A DNA stretch of 47,427 nucleotides from Rhizorhabdus sp. (GTDB lineage Bacteria; Pseudomonadota; Alphaproteobacteria; Sphingomonadales; Sphingomonadaceae). The DNA lies in assembly GCF_018006725.1 (NCBI RefSeq), contig NZ_JAGMXV010000011.1:1-47427 (forward strand). The letters are read 5' to 3'. A program made the translations under genes and the position numbers. The notes beneath the pieces are model-generated. The model had not been told where the DNA came from, made no database searches, and saw only the letters and a program-made list of their open reading frames with translations. Position 1 is the stretch's first letter; the number at the start of each line of letters is the position of its first letter. This document shows, in pieces, positions 1 through 13,896 of the stretch.

Positions 1-117
1 GGCACGGGCTGGGCCCGCGGCTTCGGCTTTGTCGGCCTGATCCTGGCGGCGGTGAACATTTTCGGCGGGTTCCTGGTGACCAGCCGGATGCTCGCCATGT
101 ACTCGAAGAAGAAGTGA
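1..117 (+). CDS. NAD(P) transhydrogenase, alpha subunit part 2 (3' end only)
   Basis: This is the last 38 codons of a gene that enters from the left edge. The peptide is one hydrophobic helix (about residues 7-20) followed by INIFGGFLVTSRMLAMY and a KKK tail. That is the characteristic C-terminus of the membrane part of the proton-translocating transhydrogenase alpha chain, a separate subunit in alphaproteobacteria. The enzyme couples proton entry across the inner membrane to NADP+ reduction by NADH. The next ORF starts 10 nt downstream and begins as PntB, which matches the usual subunit order. Only the tail is visible, so the assignment rests on this signature and on the neighbour. Confidence 0.75.
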   Translation, partial: GTGWARGFGFVGLILAAVNIFGGFLVTSRMLAMYSKKK

Positions 118-127
118 GCGCACCGAC

Positions 128-865
128 ATGAACGCCAATCTGGTCGCGCTGCTCTATCTCGTCTCGGGTGTCCTGTTCATCCTGGCGCTGCGCGGGCTCT
201 CCAGCCCGGTCACGTCCCGCCAGGGCAATATTTTCGGCATGGTCGGCATGACCATCGCCATTCTAACGACGCTCGGCTCCTCCCCGCCGGCCGGCCCGGG
301 CGGCTGGGCGCTGGTGCTCGGCGGCCTCGCGCTCGGCGGCGGCGCCGGCGCGGTCATCGCTCGCAAGATCGCGATGACGCAGCAGGATATCCGCGAACTG
401 CGCACGCAGATCGATACGCGAGGCGGCCTCGCCCAGATCGAACAGTGGAACCAGAACGTCTATGGTCTGCAGGCGCCGGGGCCCGAGCAGTTCGCGACGA
501 ACTCGGTGCGGCTCGTGGCGATGACTCAGCCGCAGGGCCAGCCGGCGCTGCAGCTCGATCCGCAGATCGTCGCTAGCCGTGGCGCGGTCGACAAGGTCAG
601 CTTCGACAAGATCGAGGACGCGGGCGGCACCACGACGCCGTCGCGGGCCACGCCGATTCCTGCCCCTGCTCCGGCCGTCGAACAGCCGCGCCTGCGGTCG
701 GCCAACTTTGTCCAGGCCAAGGCTCCCGCGCTCGCCGAACAGGCGCCGTCGCCGGTACATGAAGTAGCGCTGCGCAAGGTCGGCAAGCCCGTAAGCCTCG
801 GGGACGATTTCCTCGACGGGCTGAGCGACGACCGGTCCGCGCGCAGCCGCAAAGGCAAGCAATGA
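128..865 (+). CDS. Chimeric ORF: PntB N-terminus fused in frame to FtsL C-terminus
   Basis: The 245-aa ORF is two unrelated proteins joined in frame. Residues 1-84 read as the start of transhydrogenase beta subunit PntB: three membrane helices near 4-21, 36-50 and 60-78, LRGLSSP, GNIFGMVGMTIA, and VIARKIAMT. PntB normally runs to about 460 aa, with an NADP-binding domain that is missing here. From about residue 85 the sequence becomes a periplasmic coiled coil with the alphaproteobacterial FtsL pattern TRGGLAQIEQWN, then LQAPGPEQF, and a long Ala/Pro-rich tail. It overlaps ftsI by 4 nt (ATGA), exactly where ftsL belongs. The native FtsL membrane anchor and the upstream mraZ and rsmH are missing. 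PntB is expected to start outside the membrane, so three helices would leave the FtsL part in the cytoplasm. Either a deletion/fusion or an assembly join near position 380 would explain this. Confidence 0.72.
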   Translation: MNANLVALLYLVSGVLFILALRGLSSPVTSRQGNIFGMVGMTIAILTTLGSSPPAGPGGWALVLGGLALGGGAGAVIARKIAMTQQDIRELRTQIDTRGGLAQIEQWNQNVYGLQAPGPEQFATNSVRLVAMTQPQGQPALQLDPQIVASRGAVDKVSFDKIEDAGGTTTPSRATPIPAPAPAVEQPRLRSANFVQAKAPALAEQAPSPVHEVALRKVGKPVSLGDDFLDGLSDDRSARSRKGKQ

Positions 866-2601
866 ACGCGCCTGCGGTCGGGCTAAACCCGCCGCGCGAC
901 CGCGCCCTCGTCAAGACCGACCAGACGGTCCAGACCGCCCATGAGCGCCTGATGGTGCTGATGATGCTGTTCGGCCTGCTGATCGGCATCATCGCGCTGC
1001 GCCTGCTCTACCTCGCCATATTCGACGGCCCCGATCGGTCGGCAGTCGCTGCCACGAGCGGCCGGCGCGGCGAGATTCTCGACCGCAATGGCAAAGTCCT
1101 TGCCTCGACGATCCGCGGGGTCAGCCTCGCCATTCGCCCGCCGCTGGTGATCGGCGACAAGGCCCGTCTCGCGACCGAACTGGCTCGTCTATTCCCGAGC
1201 CGCACGGCCGACTATTATCTGCGCATCCTCAGCGGACGGCGCAAATTCGTCTATCTGGAGCGGGGCGCAACGCCTGCCATGATCCGCGCGGTGCGACTGC
1301 TGGGCGAGCCGGGCATCGAGGAAGTACCCGAACCGAAGCGCTTCTATCCGCAAGGCACGATGGCCGCGCAGGTCATCGGCTATATGGACATCGGCGGCGT
1401 GCCGGTGAGTGGCATGGAAACCTTCCTCGACAAGCGGCTGACCAGCCCGGGCGCGAGCAACCAACCGGTCGAACTGTCGATCGACAGCCGCGTGCAGGCC
1501 GCCCTCGAAAGCGCCATCCGCAAGCAGGCCGAAAAGCATTTCGCGGTCGGCGGCGCCGGCATCGTGCTCGACGTGCACACCGGCGAGGTCATCGCCATGG
1601 CCTCCTTGCCGGTGTTCAACCCGAACGCCCCCGGCCTCGTCCCCGTGGGCACCGATCCCCTGCGCCCCGATGCGCGCTACAACCGTGCGATCAGCTCGGT
1701 CTACGAGCTCGGATCGACCTTCAAGGTGCTGACGATGGCCAACGCCATCGAGAACGGCGTGATTACCGATTTCGGCCGCCGCTATGACGCGACCGCTCCG
1801 CTCAAGGTCGGCGGCTTCACGATCCGCGACGACCATCCGCAGAAGCGCTGGATGTCGGTCCCCGATATCCTGATCCACTCGTCGAACATCGGCACCGCCC
1901 GCATCGCCGAAGAACTGGGCCCTGAGCGCACCCAGGCCTTCTTCCGCAAGCTCGGCTTCGACCGCGCCGCCGACCTGGAGCTCGGTGCCCGCGGCAAGCC
2001 GCTCTGGCCTGGCTACTGGGCGCGGACGACCGTCATGACGGTCGCCTATGGCCATGGCATCGCCGTCAGCCAGCTACACCTCGCCAATGCCTATGCAGCG
2101 ATGGTCAACGGCGGAATCATGCGCCCCGCAACGCTGCTGAAGCTCGCGCCCGGCCAGGCGCCCAGGGGCCAGCGCGTGATCTCCGAGGAAACCAGCCGCC
2201 GCGTTCGCCAGCTGATGCGTCTGGTCGTCAAGGAAGGCACCGGACGCGGTGCCGACATCCCCGGCCTGCGGGTCGGCGGCAAGACCGGTACCGCCGAAAA
2301 GAATCTCAATGGACGCTATATCCACAACAGCCTCGTCACGACCTTTGCCACGGCCTTCCCGATGGACGCGCCGCGCTATGTCGTGATCGTGACGATGGAC
2401 GAGCCGCAGGGCATTCCCGAGACCTATGGCTTTCGTAGCGCGGCCTGGACCGCTCTGCCCGCAGCCAAGAATGTCATCGCCAGAATCGGTCCGCTACTCG
2501 GAGTCATTCCCGACCCGAGCAAGGACATCGACGTCTCCGACCTGATGCCGTTCGTCTACAAACCCGAGAAGGAGGATGCGGGCGTCCATGCGATTGACTG
2601 A
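862..2601 (+). CDS. ftsI: Peptidoglycan D,D-transpeptidase FtsI (PBP3)
   Basis: Septal class B penicillin-binding protein that cross-links new peptidoglycan with the glycosyltransferase FtsW. The protein has 579 aa, the usual size. A single membrane anchor lies near residues 30-52, followed by the PBP dimerisation domain and a C-terminal transpeptidase domain. The three catalytic motifs are all visible: S285-T-F-K288 (nucleophile Ser285), S340-S-N342 and K474-T-G476. The ATG overlaps the stop of the preceding FtsL-like ORF by 4 nt, so the two are translationally coupled. Its end overlaps the start region of murE. The gene looks complete and unremarkable, which places the abnormal junction upstream of it. 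Confidence 0.96.
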   Translation: MNAPAVGLNPPRDRALVKTDQTVQTAHERLMVLMMLFGLLIGIIALRLLYLAIFDGPDRSAVAATSGRRGEILDRNGKVLASTIRGVSLAIRPPLVIGDKARLATELARLFPSRTADYYLRILSGRRKFVYLERGATPAMIRAVRLLGEPGIEEVPEPKRFYPQGTMAAQVIGYMDIGGVPVSGMETFLDKRLTSPGASNQPVELSIDSRVQAALESAIRKQAEKHFAVGGAGIVLDVHTGEVIAMASLPVFNPNAPGLVPVGTDPLRPDARYNRAISSVYELGSTFKVLTMANAIENGVITDFGRRYDATAPLKVGGFTIRDDHPQKRWMSVPDILIHSSNIGTARIAEELGPERTQAFFRKLGFDRAADLELGARGKPLWPGYWARTTVMTVAYGHGIAVSQLHLANAYAAMVNGGIMRPATLLKLAPGQAPRGQRVISEETSRRVRQLMRLVVKEGTGRGADIPGLRVGGKTGTAEKNLNGRYIHNSLVTTFATAFPMDAPRYVVIVTMDEPQGIPETYGFRSAAWTALPAAKNVIARIGPLLGVIPDPSKDIDVSDLMPFVYKPEKEDAGVHAID

Positions 2602-4006: not shown

Positions 4007-5418
4007 TGAGCGCGTCTTCCTCCCCGCTCTGGACAGCCTTTGACATCGCCGCTGCGGTCGATGGCGAGGTGCACGGCGACTTCCAGGCGTCCGGCGTCGC
4101 CTTCGACTCGCGGGAGATCGGCCCGGGCGACCTGTTCATCGCGATGAAGGGCGAGACGACCGACGGCCATGCCTTCCTCGACAAGGCTTTTGCCGCCGGG
4201 GCGTCGGGCGCGATCGTGTCCGATGCCTGCGCGGGCCCACATGTCCGCGTCAGCGACACGATGCCGGCGCTGGAAGCGCTGGGCGTCGCATCGCGCGCGC
4301 GCATGGCCGGCAAGGTCATCGGCGTCACGGGTTCCGTGGGCAAGACCGGCACCAAGGAGGCACTGTTCGCCTGCCTGGATCGCGCCTTGCGTGGCCGGGT
4401 CCATCGTTCGGTCAAGAGCTACAACAACCATACCGGGGTGCCGCTGAGCCTCGCCCGCATGCCCGCCGACACCGCCATCGGTGTGTTCGAGATGGGCATG
4501 AACCATGCCGGCGAATTGGCCCATCTGACCCGTCTCGTCCGGCCGCATGTCGCAATTGTCACCGCCATCGCGCCCGCGCATAGCGCCTTTTTCGCCAGCG
4601 AAGCCGATATTGCCGAAGCCAAGGGCGAAATTTTCCAGGGACTCGAACCGGGCGGCACCGCCATCCTGCCCTATGACAGCCCGCATCGCGATCGGCTACG
4701 GGCGGCGGCCGACGCCCATGCAGGCCGCATCCTGACCTTCGGCCACAGCCGCGAGGCCGACGTCCGCGTGCAGGACGTCGTCCCTCTCGACAACGGCACG
4801 CTGGTCTCGCTGATCCTGCCCGACGCCGAACTGACCTTCACGATCGCCCCGCCCGGCACCCACTGGGTGTCCAACGCCATGGCGGTGATGGCCGCCGTGT
4901 GGGCCGTGGGCGGCGACCTGGCGGCAGCTGGCCTCGCCTTTGCCGACATGGAGGGTCTTCCCGGACGCGGTCAGCGTAGCACCGTCGCGATCGGCAACGG
5001 CACCGCGCTGGTGATCGACGAGAGCTACAACGCCAATCCCGGATCGATGGCCGCGACCATCGGCATGCTCGGCCAGCAGGCGGCCGAGCGCCGCGTCGTC
5101 GTGCTCGGCGACATGCGCGAACTCGGGGCCGGATCGCCCGATTATCATGCCGCGCTGGCAGGACCGCTGCAGGCCGCCGGCGTAGGCTTCGCGCTGCTCG
5201 TCGGACAGGAGATGACGGCGCTCGCAAACGCCCTTGAGGGGCGGATCGATTTCGCGCATGTGCCCGACGCCCGCGCGGCGCTCGATTCGATCGGGAGCCG
5301 GCTTGCGCCGGGCGACGCCATATTGATCAAGGGATCGAACGCGATCGGCCTTTCGCGCCTCGTCGAGCATCTGCGCTCGGGGGCGTTGGCCGGCGAAAGG
5401 ACGCCATGCTCTACCTGA
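4006..5418 (+). CDS. murF: UDP-MurNAc-tripeptide:D-Ala-D-Ala ligase MurF
   Basis: Completes the UDP-MurNAc-pentapeptide by adding D-Ala-D-Ala made by Ddl. It is a Mur ligase with P-loop [13 protein letters not shown] at about residues 106-118 and the family segment [11 protein letters not shown] in the C-terminal half. Length is 470 aa from this start. An in-frame ATG at 3994 would add four residues (MRGL). I prefer 4006 because it forms a TGATG overlap with the murE stop and gives a typical N-terminus. The end overlaps mraY by 13 nt. Confidence 0.94.
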
Positions 5419-12656: not shown

Positions 12657-12687
12657 TGGCCACCAGCGGCAACGACCTCCGCGCCCA

Positions 12688-12735
12688 CCCCTCCACCACG
12701 CTGCGCGTGGTCCCCCTCCCCGTTCCGGGGAGGAA
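12688..12735 (+). repeat. Palindromic GC-rich repeat, copy A
   Basis: First of three copies of a ~48-bp element. It has a CCACCACGCTGCGCGTGGT half and a CCCTCCCCGTTCCGGGGAGG half, each able to fold on itself. It resembles the short REP-like elements scattered through sphingomonad genomes. It is in direct orientation to copy C and inverted to copy B. Confidence 0.8.
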
Positions 12736-12797
12736 CTGTATGACGTGGGGCTCGCATCTCCTTGCGCTGCTCAGCAGCAGCAACTCGGCCAACACGT

Positions 12798-12845
12798 TCC
12801 TCCCCTGCAAGGGGAGGGGGACCAGCCGCAGGCTGGTGGAGGGGC
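12798..12845 (-). repeat. Palindromic GC-rich repeat, copy B (inverted)
   Basis: Inverted copy of the same element. Its two stems are CCTCCCC/GGGGAGG around TGCAA and ACCAGCC/GGCTGGT. With copies A and C it could form long alternative hairpins in the murB-ddl mRNA. Confidence 0.8.
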
Positions 12846-12885
12846 ACCGCGCCAGCGGCGAAACCCTTTCCGCCCGCACCGCCCT

Positions 12886-12933
12886 CCCCTCCACCACGCT
12901 GCGCGCGGTCCCCCTCCCCGCTCCATGGAGAAA
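12886..12933 (+). repeat. Palindromic GC-rich repeat, copy C (eroded end)
   Basis: Direct copy of A with about five differences. Its last stem is broken: CCGGGGAGG has become CCATGGAGA. The eroded end supplies the GGAG that serves as ribosome-binding site for ddl, 9 nt before the GTG at 12940. Confidence 0.75.
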
Positions 12934-12939
12934 TTTTCT

Positions 12940-13896
12940 GTGACGCACGCACCGCTCCACATCGCCGTGCTGATGGGCGGCTGGTCGGCCGAGCGCGAGG
13001 TATCGCTGACCTCGGGCAACGGTGTCGCCGACGCGCTCGAAAATCTCGGCCATAAGGTGACGCGGATCGACATGGACCGCGATGTCGCCGCGCGGCTGGC
13101 GGCGGCGAAGCCCGATGTCGTGTTCAACGCGCTGCATGGCACGCCGGGCGAAGACGGCACGATCCAGGGCCTGATGGACCTGATGGGGCTGACCTATACC
13201 CATTCGGGTCTGACCACCTCAGTGATCGCGATCGACAAGGAACTGACCAAGCAGCAGCTTGTCCCCGCCGGCATCCGCATGCCCGAGGGTCGCATCATCG
13301 AAAGCGCGAGCCTGTATGAGAGCGATCCCCTGCCGCGGCCCTATGTTCTCAAGCCGGTCAATGAAGGCTCTTCGGTCGGCGTCGCCATCGTAAAAGAGGG
13401 TGACAATCACGGCTCGCCGATTCATCGTGACGCCCATGGTCCCTGGCAAAGCTTCAAGACGTTGCTCGCGGAGCCCTTCATCCGGGGGCGCGAATTGACC
13501 GTGGCAGTGCTCGGCGACCGCGCGCTGTGCGTCACCGAGTTGGTCCCGACCAGCGGCTTTTACGACTATGAGGCCAAATATACCGATGGCCTGACGACCC
13601 ATGTCTGCCCGGCGAAGATCCCGCAGGACATCGCGGACGAATGCATGCGCATGGCGCTCGACGCGCATCGCGTGCTCGGATGCCGGGGCACCTCGCGCTC
13701 CGACTTCCGCTGGGACGACGAGCAGGGCATCGAGGGCCTCTATCTGCTCGAGGTCAACACCCAGCCGGGCATGACGCCGCTCAGCCTGGTACCCGAACAG
13801 GCGAAGCAGACCGGCATGACCTATGCCGATCTCGTCCAGGCGATCGTCGACGAGGCGCTGGCCGACAGCAAAGCCAAGGAAGGACCCCAGGGATGA
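12940..13896 (+). CDS. ddl: D-alanine:D-alanine ligase Ddl
   Basis: ATP-grasp enzyme making the D-Ala-D-Ala dipeptide used by MurF. It has 318 aa from the GTG at 12940. Visible motifs are VLMGGWSAEREVSL at the start, HGTPGEDGTIQG, EGSSVGV in the ATP-binding region, and EVNTQPGMTPLSL at the metal/substrate site. An in-frame ATG at 12925 lies within repeat copy C without a ribosome-binding site. The GTG has GGAG 9 nt upstream and overlaps the preceding TGA, so I prefer it. The gene ends in an ATGA overlap with ftsQ. Confidence 0.94.
   Translation: MTHAPLHIAVLMGGWSAEREVSLTSGNGVADALENLGHKVTRIDMDRDVAARLAAAKPDVVFNALHGTPGEDGTIQGLMDLMGLTYTHSGLTTSVIAIDKELTKQQLVPAGIRMPEGRIIESASLYESDPLPRPYVLKPVNEGSSVGVAIVKEGDNHGSPIHRDAHGPWQSFKTLLAEPFIRGRELTVAVLGDRALCVTELVPTSGFYDYEAKYTDGLTTHVCPAKIPQDIADECMRMALDAHRVLGCRGTSRSDFRWDDEQGIEGLYLLEVNTQPGMTPLSLVPEQAKQTGMTYADLVQAIVDEALADSKAKEGPQG

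Follow-up and report, generated by a model that had tools for sequence, protein, structure and literature searches.

The in-frame PntB-FtsL open reading frame at the start of this DNA is, with a probability of roughly 0.96, an assembly or library chimera, in which the DNA of two organisms appears, from sequence comparison, to have been falsely joined. Almost certainly, no organism carries this chimeric frame as a gene. The window analyzed here, 47,427 bases long, is the whole of contig C420, one of 462 contigs in an assembly rated as 100% complete and 7.12% contaminated. Because the chimera begins at base 1 of C420, it occupies the extreme contig end, a location expected of an assembly or library chimera.

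The open reading frame (128..865, + strand, 245 aa) runs without a stop codon from a PntB part into an FtsL part, as the first-pass annotation had described, and the switch that it placed near 380 is found at 362-382. Upstream, bases 1..117 (+) hold the final portion of pntA2, which encodes the small membrane part of the transhydrogenase alpha subunit; the alpha subunit end was also recognized in that annotation and is borne out here by identity to Ancylobacter. This gene end is foreign to the genome and is collinear with an Ancylobacter aquaticus contig (L038) from position 1520 on. The head of a foreign pntB follows at 128..361 (+, 78 codons), and the 21-base junction, CGCAAGATCGCGATGACGCAG, which encodes RKIAMTQ and fits pntB as well as ftsL, spans 362..382 (+). 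The remainder of native ftsL, the N-terminal part of which lies on contig C190, extends over 383..865 (+). Its normal next gene, a native ftsI with Transpeptidase and PBP_dimer domains, is located at 862..2601 (+). Both are collinear with the nearest relative, G012, a congeneric genome assembled as a single contig, 60 kb of which were used for comparison.

The two parts of the frame were identified by different means. The Pfam PNTB domain was matched at residues 8-85 (E 2.9e-16), and the Pfam search returned no match beyond the PntB part. Residues 75-245 share 81% amino acid identity with the G012 gene between rsmH and ftsI (L009, 1393..2019 or from 1357), for which the Pfam search likewise gave no match. 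Because Pfam matches neither gene, the FtsL name relies on where the gene lies, on its size, and on a single hydrophobic stretch judged by eye. The G012 FtsL differs from the chimera in having its own N-terminus and hydrophobic stretch, the equivalents of which in this genome are on C190. In the chimera, the single N-terminal membrane helix typical of FtsL is absent as judged by eye, the stretch being replaced by PntB.

The first 361 bases point to a foreign source. A pattern scan with the PntB head over 84,980 species genomes yielded at least 595 stretches, and the best 80 of 428 related ones were considered. Among these best 80, A. aquaticus ranked first with 94% amino acid identity over residues 1-85; the other 79 were 55-85% identical, many being titled Xanthobacteraceae, Microvirga, or other Hyphomicrobiales. 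The A. aquaticus PntB, a protein of 467 aa, differs from the chimera past this point: it continues with MPQLVAAFHSLVG, the window with QDIRELR. At the nucleotide level, 377 bases of window 1-379 could be aligned with the A. aquaticus contig, 346 of them identical (about 92%), and this alignment spans pntA2, the intergenic gap, and pntB.

The genome's own PntB, encoded on contig C333, is only 58% identical to the PntB part at the protein level. A PF02233 search of the assembly gave just two PNTB matches (3 of 3 candidates scored): the C333 gene, which is full (profile positions 2-455) and free of stops, and the chimera fragment, which covers positions 3-79. Given these two matches and the low identity of the C333 copy, the possibility that another native pntB copy supplied the head was rejected. 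A real fusion would be expected to draw both parts from one genome; here, the head resembles Ancylobacter rather than the native protein. The C333 operon is intact in the order pntA1-pntA2-pntB, which speaks against the earlier suggestion that PntB had been inactivated. When the assembly was searched with the 3164-base Ancylobacter contig, five matches emerged (40 of 348 first-look candidates scored). One covers C420 1-382 (91% identity), two lie on the native contig C333 (72-73%), and the other two are 45-50 bases long; thus, within the candidates scored, no further donor operon was found.

Two other potential signs of foreign DNA were considered and set aside. GC content is 0.689 in bases 1-360 vs 0.666 in 361-2598, and third-position GC is 0.904 vs 0.832-0.843, differences too weak to serve as proof of foreignness. 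Copies of rpoB were considered as a sign of contamination, and a PF00562 search showed no second rpoB; a single gene is divided, as ftsL is, between two contig ends, C178 (L132) and C192 (L131), with profile positions 2-220 and 221-373, respectively. Because rpoB is one gene on two contigs, this test indicates no second organism.

Comparison in 20-base blocks places the passage from one source to the other at 362-382. The twelve 20-base blocks from 125 to 364 each match Ancylobacter pntB at 16-20 of 20 positions, and the thirteen blocks from 365 to 624 match G012 ftsL at 13-19 of 20. Agreement with Ancylobacter drops from 17/20 (365-384) to 3/20 (385-404), and agreement with G012 ftsL climbs from 10/20 (345-364) to 19/20 (365-384). 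When either C or G was allowed at one position, the junction 21-mer was present in 6 of 392 genomes (0 for the reversed-pattern control): this genome, G012 (ftsL, C variant), and four members of a single different genus in the family (pntB, G variant). In those four (L133-L136), the exact junction 21-mer sits in pntB in the same frame. Therefore, both genes naturally carry this sequence, bar one base, which provides the short shared stretch expected at the switch of an assembly or library chimera (exact in four pntB genes and one base off in G012 ftsL). Because A. aquaticus pntB differs from the 21-mer at 3 of 21 bases and G012 ftsL at 1 of 21, its exact form is presumed for the true donor and for the true native ftsL. 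Since pntB and ftsL use one and the same reading frame over the shared codons, the fusion stays in frame.

The missing start of ftsL was located on C190. This contig carries mraZ (Pfam MraZ, E 2.1e-12), the only rsmH of the assembly as found by a PF01795 search (E 2.9e-95), and then the start of ftsL, before it stops at base 5193. The first 29 residues of G012 FtsL correspond to C190 5105-5191 with 29 of 29 identical, and the hydrophobic stretch of native FtsL was found there by eye. Earlier, mraZ, rsmH, and the rest of pntB had been reported as missing; mraZ and rsmH are present on C190, so that their loss can be dismissed, and the native pntB is whole on C333. C190 15-5193 aligned to G012 1792159-1797325, and C420, from base 362 to its last base, aligned to G012 1797357-1844476. 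Within the 60 kb of G012 compared, neither C420 1-361 nor C333 had a counterpart. Identity to G012 is alike on both sides (1264/1441 at the C190 end and 1712/2001 over C420 362-2362). From these alignments and their similar identity, C190 and C420 are most likely neighbors in one chromosome.

The alignment of C420 to G012 consists of two main blocks of 12,309 and 34,925 columns, and a small repeat is located near 12.7 kb. At window 12673-12940, short-repeat copies lie between genes that we take, from the usual cluster order, to be murB-like and ddl-like. The repeat CCCCTCCACCACGCTGCG occurs at 12688 and 12886 (+), 198 bases apart, and a related copy is found at 12827-12844 (-). At the same place in G012 (L126, 18816-18900 and 19014-19098), there is a related repeat whose copies are likewise 198 bases apart. 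Allowing up to 3 mismatches, CCCCTCCACCACGCTGCG has 5 matches in the window vs 0.24 expected, two of which lie elsewhere in the window; a degenerate form has 8 matches in the assembly and none in the control.

In G012 coordinates, a gap of 31 bases, contained in neither contig, separates C190 from C420 base 362. The first-pass annotation had named native loci elsewhere with overlapping ends as the mark of an artefact; an intact pntB and an mraZ-rsmH-ftsL start were found, but the contig ends are separated by this gap rather than overlapping. The shortfall counts against the false-join explanation, as simply splitting the assembly graph at the 21-mer would not, on its own, lead one to expect it. 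The same gap could be read as the site of a true insertion, with foreign DNA placed after the last base of C190 and ahead of C420 base 362, disrupting ftsL, given that the contigs do not overlap and that the 31 G012 bases are in neither. However, C190 bears no foreign bases at its end, its match to G012 extending to the last base, 5193, and the switch falls exactly where the 21-mer compatible with both pntB and ftsL begins, as a false join predicts. An insertion would also destroy ftsL, a gene that is usually essential. We regard such an insertion as highly improbable.

A real recombination event in the strain is just as hard to credit. Under this scenario, the head of a horizontally acquired Ancylobacter-like pntB would have joined ftsL at the shared 21 bases to give a true fusion, for which the open, in-register frame is the supporting feature. 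Yet the start of ftsL still stands behind rsmH on C190 in the order seen in G012, no other part of the foreign pnt operon turned up in the assembly among the candidates scored (40 of the 348 from the first look), and the fusion lies at the extreme end of a contig. Such a fusion would, moreover, strip FtsL of its membrane helix. Genuine fusion would further lead one to expect either loss of the native genes or full second copies of them, and the assembly holds instead an intact pntB on C333 and a complementary ftsL start on C190.

The distribution of the fusion among relatives also argues against recombination. The chimeric protein was searched in 60 genomes, including its own, and 58 had a match; no PntB-FtsL fusion was seen among the 59 other genomes. 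Matches extending well past junction residues 79-85 were those in G005 and G018 (both 7-130), G032 (36-140), and G023 (55-204). The G005 and G018 matches are full-length PntB proteins (467 and 465 aligned columns), and those in G023 and G032 are FtsL-like genes followed by ftsI. Further PntB matches stop at residues 91-103 and belong to listed open frames of at least 472 aa. Two short matches on contigs C410 and C100 were set aside, their open reading frames bearing no likeness to PntB or FtsL by eye. In the same genus (14 genomes), the PntB part and the FtsL part were matched separately in 13 of the 13 others, which rules out a fusion conserved in the genus. A real fusion might be expected in relatives, where none was seen, although a young one could lack such presence. 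No paper treating FtsL, PntB, and fusion together was found among the open-licence papers searched. There is very little chance that a real strain or subpopulation carries an FtsL in which the initial helices of PntB, acquired horizontally, have taken the place of the membrane anchor; if it did, the FtsL anchor would seem to be exchangeable for an unrelated multi-helix anchor.

If the join is false, the true chromosomal order is most likely mraZ-rsmH-ftsL-ftsI, with C190 followed, after some 31 bases, by C420 from base 362 on. At the 5' end of C420, a pntA2-pntB piece of about 361 bases, derived from a bacterium akin to Ancylobacter, would then have been attached in place of the 31 bases and C190. 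The switch may have occurred over the shared 21-base stretch, either through a short-word assembly graph or through a chimeric library fragment, so that the error would have arisen in assembly or in library making. At about 360 bases, the foreign piece could, as a guess, correspond to a single sequenced fragment. The assembly itself probably derives from a mixed sample. Of the two origins put forward in the first-pass annotation, misassembly over a brief stretch common to both loci is strongly supported by the contig-end location, the foreign head, and the native pieces elsewhere. A deletion or inversion that joined two loci into a novel divisome protein finds no support, the native ftsL start being on C190 and the head being Ancylobacter-like. 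Because the chimera is taken as an artefact, the topology of the fusion and the loss of PntB are no longer at issue.

The case is of value only as a caution: DNA wrongly joined over 21 shared coding bases can give rise, at the end of a contig, to a fusion protein that is clean, in frame, and biologically tempting, and databases may come to include such products. Chimeric contigs produced by misassembly are described as a relatively rare error in metagenome assemblies in the GUNC paper (PMC8201837). C420 resembles the chimeric contigs described there in uniting fragments from two sources in one contig. It differs from them in that the foreign part comprises only the first 361 of 47,427 bases, fewer than two genes. 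Because the foreign part is so short, screens that rely on gene counts would hardly detect a contig of this kind.
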